Shown piece after piece: positions 34,653 to 37,730 of a stretch of DNA of 40,788 bases. The notes under the pieces are model-generated. The model ran no database searches. It was not told where the DNA came from and worked only from the letters and a program-made list of their open reading frames with translations. Source of the stretch: Clostridiaceae bacterium (lineage in GTDB: Bacteria; Bacillota; Clostridia; Acetivibrionales; DUMC01); contig DUMC01000030.1 of assembly GCA_012840075.1 (NCBI GenBank), positions 1-40,788 of the forward strand, read 5' to 3'. The translations under genes were made by a program, and so were the position numbers. Every line of letters starts with the position of its first letter. The first letter of the stretch is position 1.

Positions 34653-35603
34653 GTGAATTTTAAAAAGTTGGATATTGAAGACAGAGACATTTTTCAAAAG
34701 TTTTTGGGACAGTATGAATTTGGTACATACGAATATTCGTTCTTAACTTTATATTTTTGGAGAAAGATGTTGAACGTCGAATATGCTCTTATCGACGATG
34801 CTTTGATAGTTAAAAAATATGAGGAACAAAAAGGTTCTTATTTTATGCAGCCAATTGGATATAAAGAAGAATCATTAATGAAGATTATCGAAAAATTGAG
34901 ACAGATTAAAGCTAGTGATGCTTCTTTTAAAAATCTTTTTAGGGACATTGAGCTGCCTTTCTTGTACAAGCTTATGGATCTTTATAAAGATGATGTTTGC
35001 TTTTGCGAGGATATTAATAACTTCGATTATATTTACAATGCAAGTGACCTTATTACTTTAAAAGGTAAAAAGTTCCATCGGAAGAGAAATCATTATAATC
35101 AATTTGTTGGAAATTATAGTTATGAAATTAAAGATATAAGCGAGCCGGGAGTGATAAATGATTGCATTGATTTTGCCCAATATTGGTATGAAAATAGGCA
35201 AGAAGATGATATACAGTTAGAATATGAATTAGAAGGTATTAAGGAGGTACTTCCGAAGTATCAATTTTTCGGCATACAATGCATGGCGGTTTACGTAGGG
35301 GGCAAAATTGTAGGTTTTACGGTGGGAGAAAAAATAAACAAAGATATGGCAATAATTCATGTGGAAAAAGGTGATTTTAATTACAATGGAGTTTATGCTT
35401 TTATTAATAAAACTTTTGCAGAGAAATATTTAAGTGATGTTAAATATATTAATCGCCAGGAAGATCTCGGACATAAGGGTCTGAGAAAAGCAAAAATGTC
35501 TTATAATCCCGTAAAACTCGAACGAAAGTTTATTGTAGACATAAAGGGACATTCTACATTACATGGGGACATTCCTCTCTCCAAAACGAATACCTATAAC
35601 TAG
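34653..35603 (+). CDS. DUF2156 protein (GNAT-like, LPG-synthase C-terminal type)
   Basis: A 316-aa cytosolic protein of DUF2156, related to the acyl/aminoacyl-transferase domain of phosphatidylglycerol lysyltransferase (MprF). Seen here are YEFGTYEYSFLTLYFWRK, ALIDDALIVKKY, KFHRKRNHYNQFVGNY, FFGIQCMAVYVGGKIVGFTVGE, IIHVEKGDFNYNGVYAFINK and NRQEDLGHKGLRKAKMSYNP. It has no membrane part, so it is a free-standing version; function is unknown. Start is GTG 34653. The natural C-terminus probably ends near KLERKFIV. The last ~18 residues (GHSTLHGDIPLSKTNTYN) are encoded by a REP-like palindrome that supplies the stop codon. Confidence 0.85.
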   Translation: MNFKKLDIEDRDIFQKFLGQYEFGTYEYSFLTLYFWRKMLNVEYALIDDALIVKKYEEQKGSYFMQPIGYKEESLMKIIEKLRQIKASDASFKNLFRDIELPFLYKLMDLYKDDVCFCEDINNFDYIYNASDLITLKGKKFHRKRNHYNQFVGNYSYEIKDISEPGVINDCIDFAQYWYENRQEDDIQLEYELEGIKEVLPKYQFFGIQCMAVYVGGKIVGFTVGEKINKDMAIIHVEKGDFNYNGVYAFINKTFAEKYLSDVKYINRQEDLGHKGLRKAKMSYNPVKLERKFIVDIKGHSTLHGDIPLSKTNTYN

Positions 35604-35650
35604 GAGAGGTGTGTCCCCATGCAACCTGAAACTCGAGAGAGGTGTGTCCC
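35546..35650. repeat. REP-like nested palindromes at the DUF2156/GNAT junction
   Basis: CATGGGGACATTCCTCTC(TC)C at 35562-35582 pairs, with a 2-nt mismatch and a small bulge, with GGAGAGGTGTGTCCCCATG at 35603-35621. A second right arm, GAGAGAGGTGTGTCCC, is at 35635-35650, and a second left arm, GGGACATTC, at 35546-35554. The DUF2156 stop codon lies in the loop. The GTGTCCCC/GGGGAC style is that of REP sequences linked to RAYT transposases. No transposase is in this window. Confidence 0.75.
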
Positions 35651-35677
35651 TTCACCTTATTCGAAAGGATGTTACCC

Positions 35678-36235
35678 GTGATTAGAGGTTTACTGGAAGG
35701 CGAAAATGTAAAGCTTACAGCAATAGATGATGCCGATATTCCAATAATTGAAGAGTGGTTTAATGATATACGGTTTTTGAGGCATTATGATATGGTGCCT
35801 GCCATACCTAAGAATTTGAAACAGGTAGCTGAAATGATCAAGTATTATAATGATTCACAAGAGAAGTATATTTTTGCTGTAAGAACAAAGGATAATAACA
35901 GAATAATAGGTGTTGCAGGGTTCGATGAAATTATCTGGAGCAACGGTGTTTCCACGGTGTTTATCGGCATAGGGAACAACGAGTTTACAGGAAAAGGCTT
36001 TGGTACTGAAGCCATGAGGCTGCTTTTGGATTATGGATTCAATGAGCTTAATTTTTACAGGATACAGCTTAATGTGATTGCATATAATGAGAGGGCAATA
36101 AAACTATATGAAAAGCTGGGTTTTATCAGGGAAGGAACTTTAAGGGAATTTATATTCAGAGACGGCAAAAGATATGATATGTATGTTTACGGATTATTAA
36201 GACATGAATGGGGAGGAATAAATGAAAGAAAATAA
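35678..36235 (+). CDS. GNAT-family N-acetyltransferase (RimJ/RimL type)
   Basis: A 185-aa acetyltransferase, probably acting on protein N-termini or small amines with acetyl-CoA. It shows GENVKLTAIDDADIPIIEEWFND, IGVAGFDEI, the acetyl-CoA loop IGNNEFTGKGFGTEAMRLLLDYGF, and LNVIAYNERAIKLYEKLGFIREGTLRE. I chose GTG 35678 because AAAGGA lies 9 nt before it. A reading from 35642 would start within the REP-like element. The end overlaps hflX by 14 bp, so the two are coupled. Confidence 0.88.
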   Translation: MIRGLLEGENVKLTAIDDADIPIIEEWFNDIRFLRHYDMVPAIPKNLKQVAEMIKYYNDSQEKYIFAVRTKDNNRIIGVAGFDEIIWSNGVSTVFIGIGNNEFTGKGFGTEAMRLLLDYGFNELNFYRIQLNVIAYNERAIKLYEKLGFIREGTLREFIFRDGKRYDMYVYGLLRHEWGGINERK

Positions 36236-37730
36236 ACCCGGTGAGATTTCGGAACTTGAAGGATTGCCTGTAGAAAGTAATTTGCTTTCTAAAAAGGAAT
36301 TACCTGTGGAAAGAGAATTGCATGCAGAAAGAGCGGAAAAAGGATTTTTTGCGGGTAAAGAATTGCCTACGGGAAGAGAATTAGCTGTAGAAAGAGCCAT
36401 ATTGGTAGGGCTTGAGACTGAAAGTATGGGTCATGTAATTGAAGGGAAAACCGAGGGGGAAAGGACCCTTGATGAGCTTGAGGAATTGGCAAAAACCGCC
36501 GGTATTGAAGTTGTGGGTAAATTGTTGCAAAGAAGACCAACAAAGGAACCTGCCTATTACATAGGGAAGGGCAAATTAGAGGAACTAGGCCGCCTTTGCA
36601 AAAGTATGAATGCAGAAACAGTAATTTTTGACGATGAGCTTACAGGTGCTCAAATAAGAAACCTAGAAGAAGCTCTCGATGTGAAGGTTGTAGACAGAAC
36701 TATGCTTATTCTTGACATATTTGCCCAGAGAGCGCGTTCCAGAGAAGGTAAAATCCAGGTTGAACTTGCCCAGCTAAAATACAGGCTTCCCAGACTTGTA
36801 GGCATGGGAGGTAAACTGTCCAGGCTGGGTGGTGGTATTGGAACAAGAGGACCGGGAGAGAAAAAACTTGAAACCGACAGAAGACATATAAAAAGAAGAA
36901 TTAGTTATTTGCAAAATCAGCTTAAAGAAGTCAAAAAGCAACGAGACTTAATCAGGAAAACAAGAGTGAAAAATGAATTTTTCACAGTTGCTCTTGTGGG
37001 TTATACAAACGCAGGAAAATCTACACTAATGAATAAATTATGCGGATCCGATGTTTTTGTAGAAGATAAGCTTTTTGCCACACTTGATCCTACAGCCAGG
37101 AAACTGACTTTTAATAATGATGGATTAAGCCATGGTTTATCAAGCAGCGGTGCTTCACATAATAATAGCATTGCAGACCAAAGCGTTGCACAACCTATAC
37201 TTATAATAGACACAGTCGGTTTCATAAGAAAATTACCTACGGAATTGATCGAAGCATTTAAATCAACATTGGAAGAAGCAGTATATGCAGATTTGTTAAT
37301 TCATGTAGTGGATGTATCCGATCCTGAATATGAGGCACATATTGCAGTTGTTGATGAAATTTTATATTCCCTTGGTGCAGGGAATAAACCCAGGATACTG
37401 GTTTTGAATAAAATAGACCTTTTAAAGCCCCATGAAAGGATTCCTCTTAAAAACTCCTATGGAGAAAATCGCAGGGAAGTTTATGAGATTTCCGCAAAAA
37501 CAGGCCAGGGTCTGGATAAACTTGTTAAAGGGATTAGAAAAATCCTTGCGTCCGACAAAATTCAATTGGATTTGCTAATCCCATACAATGAAGGTTGGGC
37601 ACTGCCATACATCTATGAGAATGGAACAATTCTGGAAAAAGAATTTGTGGAAAACGGGACAAGAGTAAAGGTTTTAATCGAAGAAAGAAAAGCGCATAAA
37701 ATAAAGGAATTTGAAAGGCGTGCAAAATAA
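36222..37730 (+). CDS. hflX: HflX, ribosome-associated GTPase, with a repetitive N-terminal extension
   Basis: A 502-aa GTPase that splits stalled or heat-damaged ribosomes. The HflX N-domain has AILVGLETE, LLQRRPTKEPAYYIGKGKLEEL and FDDELTGAQIRNLEE, then QVELAQLKYRLPRL and the glycine-rich GGIGTRGPGEKKLETDRR. The G domain has GYTNAGKST (G1), DTVGFIRKLP (G3) and LNKIDLL (G4). Two additions are unusual. Residues 1-57 repeat ELPVER/ELHAER/ELPTGR/ELAVER-like units before the normal start. Residues ~300-322 carry a Ser/Asn-rich insert between the switch I area and G3. GGGAGG lies before ATG 36222, and the gene overlaps GNAT. Confidence 0.94.
   Translation: MKENKPGEISELEGLPVESNLLSKKELPVERELHAERAEKGFFAGKELPTGRELAVERAILVGLETESMGHVIEGKTEGERTLDELEELAKTAGIEVVGKLLQRRPTKEPAYYIGKGKLEELGRLCKSMNAETVIFDDELTGAQIRNLEEALDVKVVDRTMLILDIFAQRARSREGKIQVELAQLKYRLPRLVGMGGKLSRLGGGIGTRGPGEKKLETDRRHIKRRISYLQNQLKEVKKQRDLIRKTRVKNEFFTVALVGYTNAGKSTLMNKLCGSDVFVEDKLFATLDPTARKLTFNNDGLSHGLSSSGASHNNSIADQSVAQPILIIDTVGFIRKLPTELIEAFKSTLEEAVYADLLIHVVDVSDPEYEAHIAVVDEILYSLGAGNKPRILVLNKIDLLKPHERIPLKNSYGENRREVYEISAKTGQGLDKLVKGIRKILASDKIQLDLLIPYNEGWALPYIYENGTILEKEFVENGTRVKVLIEERKAHKIKEFERRAK

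Follow-up and report, generated by a model that had tools for sequence, protein, structure and literature searches.

We analysed a 40,788-nucleotide stretch of DNA from a Clostridiaceae bacterium (the window; contig DUMC01000030.1 of assembly GCA_012840075.1), in which a nested palindrome lies across the 3' end of a gene encoding a DUF2156 protein and reaches close to the next gene, which encodes a GNAT acetyltransferase. In the reading that we favour, with a probability of about 0.82, this palindrome is a composite, GGGGAC-tagged element, akin to REPINs and miniature inverted-repeat transposable elements (MITEs), that was inserted at the extreme 3' end of the DUF2156 gene, most likely by a TIRYT-type Y1/HUH transposase, and the tail of the protein is read from the element. 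What we computed directly carries this reading: a dispersed repeat family, the approximate ends of the element, the absence of the tail from relatives, the gene pair free of the element, and transposase genes of relatives bearing matching inverted repeats.

The DUF2156 reading frame ends inside a nested palindrome

The DUF2156 frame crosses both left arms of the palindrome and stops at a TAG (35601-35603) in the inner loop, its last 18 residues (GHSTLHGDIPLSKTNTYN) lying wholly inside the element. The inner arms (35559-35579 and 35604-35624) have 21 nt each and a complementarity of 86%, and the outer arms are GGGACATTC at 35546-35554 and GAGAGGTGTGTCCC at 35637-35650. The outer unit of the window copy has the form AGGGAC..GTCCCT (35545-35651) and is separated from the inner unit by the spacers TACATTACAT and ATGCAACC. 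A preliminary description, made from the letters of the window alone, had placed nested arms across the end of this gene, a stop in the loop after about 18 extra residues, and the end of the right arms 13 bp before the ribosome-binding site of the GNAT gene; the arms are where it put them, the frame is as described, and the distance is exact (35650 to AAAGGA at 35664).

Folded as single-stranded DNA, positions 35546-35652 reach -20 kcal/mol (shuffle mean -10.1, z -4.5), and folded as RNA they reach -43.4 (z -5.25), with 0 of 200 shuffles equalling either value. A chance palindrome or a native part of the gene can be set aside as extremely improbable, given these shuffles, the 59 related places described below and the homologues that have no palindrome. 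A terminator scan of 35400-35800 found none, for loops of 3-8 only and so with little bearing on a longer hairpin; as read from the sequence, no T-run follows the hairpin on the + strand.

Relatives lack the tail, and four carry the gene pair without the element

The C-termini were compared over the 42 of 47 DUF2156 loci with an SYxP motif (the motif search had no match in L058, L061, L064, L068 and L072, which are not among the 42). From this conserved motif to the C-terminus the window protein has 30 residues, against 10-15 in 33 of the 42 homologues, and its tail is found in none of the 42. The preliminary description had set an insertion against a unique palindrome with a conserved tail; we found a repeated palindrome and a tail that these relatives do not share. 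In an AlphaFold model of the protein (mean pLDDT 86.6), the last strand ends at residue 297 and residues 304-316 fall below a pLDDT of 50, which suggests that the tail is probably disordered and tolerated and would have no effect on the protein. In eight relatives (L059, L062, L063, L065, L066, L069, L070 and L074), the DUF2156-type protein extends 188-204 residues into a further domain, GNAT-like by eye; the window has DUF2156 and GNAT as two distinct, adjacent genes.

A GNAT homologue stands 3' of DUF2156 in 5 of the 29 relatives' loci (L028-L032; 63-70% identity). The alignment with all five begins at residue 1 or 2 of the window protein (MIRGLLEG), and GTG 35678 is most likely the start codon. 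This conservation of the start means that the GNAT gene was not reshaped. The earlier suggestion that the palindrome reshaped two genes thus stands for the DUF2156 tail and fails for the GNAT start. In L028-L031, where the whole short spacer between the two genes is visible in all four, no palindrome was found in it. The genomes of these loci carry 2, 14, 13 and 5 matches to the element elsewhere, respectively, and that of L032 carries none. The features of the window are collected in Table 1.

Table 1. Features around the DUF2156-GNAT junction (positions in the window)
Feature	Position	Strand	Evidence
DUF2156 / LPG_synthase_C gene, 316 aa	34653..35603	+	Pfam PF09924 E 9.4e-52, residues 21-295
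Left junction	35537..35544	.	poor match to left terminal octamer, compared by eye
Outer unit of the nested palindrome, AGGGACATTC ... GAGAGGTGTGTCCCT	35545..35651	.	same composite at other places in the genome
Element-encoded C-terminal tail GHSTLHGDIPLSKTNTYN and stop	35547..35603	+	frame translation; C-termini of homologues
Inner 54-nt core unit GGGGACATTCC...GTGTGTCCCC	35565..35618	.	covariance model R1 70.4 bits, E 1.6e-12 (window copy is 1 of the 14 used to build R1); exact pattern match
Right terminal octamer TCACCTTA	35652..35659	.	7/8 positions match the family consensus TTACCTTA
Ribosome-binding-site-like AAAGGA	35664..35669	+	13 bp after arm end 35650; 12 nt after 35651
GNAT acetyltransferase gene, start GTG 35678	35678..36235	+	Pfam PF13302 E 4.8e-20; 63-70% identity to homologues

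A dispersed family of GGGGAC-tagged palindromes

A 141-bp query has 32 matches, itself included, in the genome it comes from (3.78 Mb in 193 contigs). The pattern GGGGACA-N(1,70)-TGTCCCC matches 33 times in the forward form, a few of the matches overlapping or having unrelated middles, and 0 times in a reversed control form. A covariance model built from 14 core copies gave 61 matches, 2 of which read an already matched palindrome on the opposite strand, and these correspond to at least 59 distinct places. With 150 of the 2147 candidates scored, the true number may be higher. In all, 24 of the 40 genomes searched (this one counted) have matches to the model; 144 candidates were scored per genome of the relatives, which makes their copy numbers lower bounds and their absences soft. 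The palindrome is therefore repeated, as the preliminary description had anticipated. With many dispersed copies and inverted tagged ends, it forms a REPIN/MITE-like repeat family. All 14 aligned core copies have GGGGACA and TGTCCCC without variation; for 13 of them, these ends were a requirement of the pattern used to select them.

The element unit spans about 70 bp: a left octamer ending in TCAAAA, a hairpin with arms GGGGACATTCC and GTGTGTCCCC, and a right octamer TTACCTTA. Its size follows from the information in the flanks (40 left and 42 right outer flanks of this genome; 59 flanks from other genomes, with L189 dropped from the 60 for having too little flank), which is near background beyond about -8 on the left (...TCAAAA) and +8 on the right (TTACCTTA). 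In this genome, octamer positions 6-8 are a stop triplet at 13 of the 14 sites facing a co-directional start and at 7 of the 9 facing an opposing stop, counts that favour an octamer belonging to the element. Where the right end has no gene nearby, however, the triplet is present at only 8 of 17 sites, and several of these sites have the inner-unit spacer (ATGCAA type) in its place. In the window copy, the left junction may be mostly host sequence.

The composite form recurs. Six loci, the window included, align in having the same outer right arm outside the inner unit, and by eye 7 of the 59 places have this form; found at several places, it seems to spread as one piece. At two other places, a 29-bp version of the palindrome is repeated in short, regular arrays (L141, G000:C107:35030-35191; L144, G000:C116:82319-82431), with units of the GGGGACATTCCTCGAAGAGGTGTGTCCCC or the AGGGAC form, periods of 44 and 42 bp, and near-constant spacers.

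Transposase genes with matching inverted repeats

The same genome encodes one intact Y1_Tnp gene (L009:925-1869; Y1_Tnp E 3.6e-16), whose protein has the motifs NNHVH and YIHNNP. Two further Y1_Tnp matches (L010 and L011), considered as intact autonomous parents, were rejected as remnants holding stops. The preliminary description had proposed a REP (repetitive extragenic palindrome) moved by a RAYT (REP-associated tyrosine transposase): a related intact gene is indeed present, and its match to the REP-associated transposase model NF047646 (NCBIfam; REP_Tyr_transpos) has an E of 1e-12 at 48.1 bits, under the curated cut-off of 80. At the C-terminus, the Bac_DnaA_C domain scores 14.8 bits (E 0.029) in L009 and 18.2 (E 0.0025) in the homologue L102, both under the cut-off of 31.5, and has no match in L104. 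Homologues of L009 occur in 23 of the 40 genomes, its own counted, with 25 matches, fragments included, in G027 alone.

Thirty transposase loci were fetched, and 27 (26 from relatives and the home one) were kept after 3 in which the motif search gave no open reading frame were dropped. GGGAC upstream of the gene together with GTCCC downstream occurs in 20 of the 27 loci (20 of the relatives' 26); the reversed orientation, as a control, occurs in 3 of the 27. The repeats at the relatives' genes include GGGGACAC, GGGGACAT and GGGGACGC. The first two are also the ends of the element, and compared with GGGGWSAS, the terminal inverted repeat of TIRtrons or TIRYT elements (PMC3733652, in its passages on these elements), the right end (GGGGACAC) fits in full and the left end (GGGGACAT) at 7 of 8 positions. 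Over the 40 genomes, having at least 4 elements is associated with a transposase of at least 200 bits (both, elements only, transposase only, neither: 13/5/3/19; Fisher p 0.0003). Counting any match of either gives 17/7/6/10 (p 0.053); the thresholds were picked afterwards and the statistics ignore the relatedness of the genomes. The tag at the foot of the hairpin is GGGGAC and not GTAG, which discards a classic GTAG REP. The movers are likely Y1/HUH transposases of the TIRYT type (subclass 2.1 of TnpAREP) and not classic GTAG-REP RAYTs. The proposal of a REP-like sequence moved by a RAYT thus holds for a repeated palindrome and a RAYT-related Y1 gene, and gives way, as regards the type, to the TIRYT or TnpAREP subclass 2.1 group, which the tag and the transposases appear to fit (PMC3733652, PMC6006769).

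Placement of copies relative to genes

We grouped the copies of this genome into 41 clusters and added 60 loci of relatives (66 copies), picked by score and contig room among the matches listed (L093, L095, G010:C156 and G024:C93, for example, were left out). Genes were called with our own codon-usage script. The right ends tend to lie 24-31 bp before a co-directional start. This is the case for 10 of 21 clusters of this genome (expected 1.3 under uniform placement) and for 8 of 31 in relatives (expected 2.5, p 0.0014), the interval having been chosen after seeing this genome and fixed before the relatives were examined. If placement within 15 or 20 bp of the start is disallowed, the excess in relatives has p 0.015 and 0.051, respectively, and that in this genome is still significant. 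One of the 41 clusters, of mixed orientation, is in the spacing test and was excluded from the orientation count, the barred-interval test, the pooled count of opposing stops and the count of stops near left ends given below (21 versus 20). The window copy has 26 bp from the outer arm end (35651) to GTG 35678; since the element and its gene overlap, this copy is not among the clusters of the spacing tests. In three copies from three genomes (L148, L150 and L198), TATCATTATTAAGGAGG follows the core; it consists of the octamer and then, almost directly, a ribosome-binding site, and the reading frames after it have different first codons.

Where the right end faces an opposing gene, that gene's stop lies exactly 5 bp from it in 4 of 14 clusters of this genome (expected 0.29) and 5 of 18 in relatives (expected 0.36). 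Among the 35 such ends pooled, the stop is at 5 bp in ten and at 0 in four, and these distances are those of the two TAA triplets of the right octamer read on the other strand. A tentative idea, which we hold with low confidence, is that the ends of the element are shaped for landing in tight gene junctions: TTACCTTA, with its two opposite-strand TAA stops, would cleanly end opposing genes, and the right edge would settle just upstream of the ribosome-binding site of the neighbour, copies thereby being invisible to selection or ready-made intercistronic spacers, across many genera of one order of Clostridia. The placement of the right ends may reflect a preference of insertion or selection, and the counts are compatible with both.

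The same spacing, along with the strength of the RNA hairpin, is what one would expect if the palindrome were kept as a functional intercistronic RNA element, stabilising the mRNA or modulating translation of the GNAT gene, and not as a tolerated insertion. Yet the four relatives that share the gene pair and whose spacer is visible in full do not have the element there, and its orientation bias is weak (19 of 27 co-directional gaps, p 0.052). Positions 35000-36300 have no credible match in Rfam (the best, to a meaningless miRNA, has E 0.94). A two-sided change is seen in only 1 of the 12 base pairs of the core, a count so low that covariation speaks neither for nor against an RNA function. We regard such a role as improbable.

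The left ends bear on how the DUF2156 gene came to end in the element. Directly before the outer left arm of the window copy is a TAA (35542-35544) that is out of frame with DUF2156, and in 13 of the 61 clusters (of 101) with a called same-direction gene on the left side, the stop of that gene lies 1-11 bp upstream of the left end. The element may accordingly have been inserted just after the native stop, with the tail arising from a later small frameshift or from a sequencing or assembly error. However, the number of left ends close to stops shows no clear excess over the placement null, with 5 of 25 in this genome (expected 4.9) and 7 of 31 in relatives (expected 4.3, p 0.09). Moreover, genes read into the core from the left in 3 of the 101 clusters, namely the window, L162 (G026) and L179 (G007), and since the called genes of the latter two, from other genomes, also end inside the core, direct reading into the left arm does occur. 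We consider a later frameshift or error the less probable course, though a serious one. The protein of L179 ends in RGHSSSIKEYLL and has in common with the tail of the window protein the GHS read from GGACATTC.

A model of the insertion and the points against it

The favoured reading, an insertion mobilised by a TIRYT-type transposase, would run as follows. The elements would be non-autonomous, with about 70 bp per unit, and would move in trans as single-stranded DNA, most likely through a TIRYT-type Y1/HUH transposase (TnpAREP subclass 2.1); in most of the relatives' loci, genes of this type lie between GGGAC/GTCCC terminal inverted repeats like those of the element. In the order of events that we infer, the insertion would have removed the DUF2156 stop or put it out of frame, and translation would have continued for 18 codons into the element up to the TAG in the loop. 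In the mRNA, a strong hairpin would stand between the two cistrons, ending 12 nt before the GNAT ribosome-binding site, with a possible effect on expression.

Several observations weigh against this reading. The home transposase gene is among the 7 loci without the GGGAC/GTCCC pair: it has three half-sites on its 5' side, the wrong way round, and none were found 3' of it within the contig. As it is single and has no inverted pair, no autonomous parent is seen in its own genome. A strong transposase homologue is missing from 5 of the 18 element-rich genomes, and in three of these five, G013, G034 and G038, which are incompletely assembled, no Y1_Tnp match was found. With protein identities of 55-64%, the relatives that have the gene pair free of the element all belong to different genera or families (the 40 genomes compared include none of the same genus), and at such divergence the exact insertion point and any target duplication are unreadable. 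The out-of-frame TAA before the left arm is such that a small indel or an assembly error alone could explain the read-through. Finally, one DUF2156 homologue (L043) also has a long end, 32 residues past SYxP, unrelated to the tail in the window.

Relation to known elements and significance

This kind of element, and this kind of effect on a gene, are already known. The TIRtron arrangement is mostly placed in TnpAREP subclass 2.1, whose members have a Bac_DnaA_C or HTH domain, and this subclass equals RAYT group 1 of Bertels (both in the passages of PMC6006769 that classify these transposases). The transposases described here resemble the subclass, as those passages define it, in their Y1_Tnp core, Y---NP motif and weak C-terminal match to Bac_DnaA_C, and their genes tend to be found in genomes that also have a population of repeats bearing this tag. 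As in the TIRtrons of PMC3733652, in the part describing them, the tag GGGGAC is close to GGGGWSAS, the Y1 transposase genes of relatives are flanked by such repeats (20 of 26), and the repeats are moderately abundant and found in dimers or clusters. What is seen here departs from the TIRtrons described there: octamers form the ends of the dispersed unit, a nested composite occurs, and no inverted pair flanks the transposase gene of the home genome. The words 'clostridi' and 'firmicutes' are absent from the text of PMC3733652.

The family shares with the REPs and REPINs that accompany RAYTs, as presented in the relevant sections of PMC2817692, an inverted pair of tagged palindromic ends, dozens of mostly intergenic copies, and some copies that provide stop codons or coding ends; REPs supplying these were described in 2013. 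It differs from them in its tag, GGGGAC and not GTAG, and has no REP pair next to the transposase gene of its own genome. Rickettsia palindromic elements are mobile palindromes that encode residues of host proteins (PMC3733652, where it touches on them), a likeness that holds by description; here, in contrast, a gene ends inside the core in 3 of 101 clusters, and in-frame insertions within proteins were not looked for. In the titles and abstract openings searched, without GGGGAC as a term, we found no such palindromes in Clostridia.

What we describe is a GGGGAC-tagged REPIN/MITE-like family in a group of Clostridia, associated with TIRYT-type transposases, one composite copy of which encodes the tail of a protein. 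For the DUF2156 protein itself, this is probably of little consequence. The family links a scattered population of palindromes to the GGGGAC-repeat branch of REP-type transposases, near whose genes one survey reports no REP-like sequences. The placement of the right ends is the most interesting part of these findings. The roughly 100 clusters of copies with recognisable ends are a natural set on where single-strand transposases insert relative to stop codons and ribosome-binding sites.
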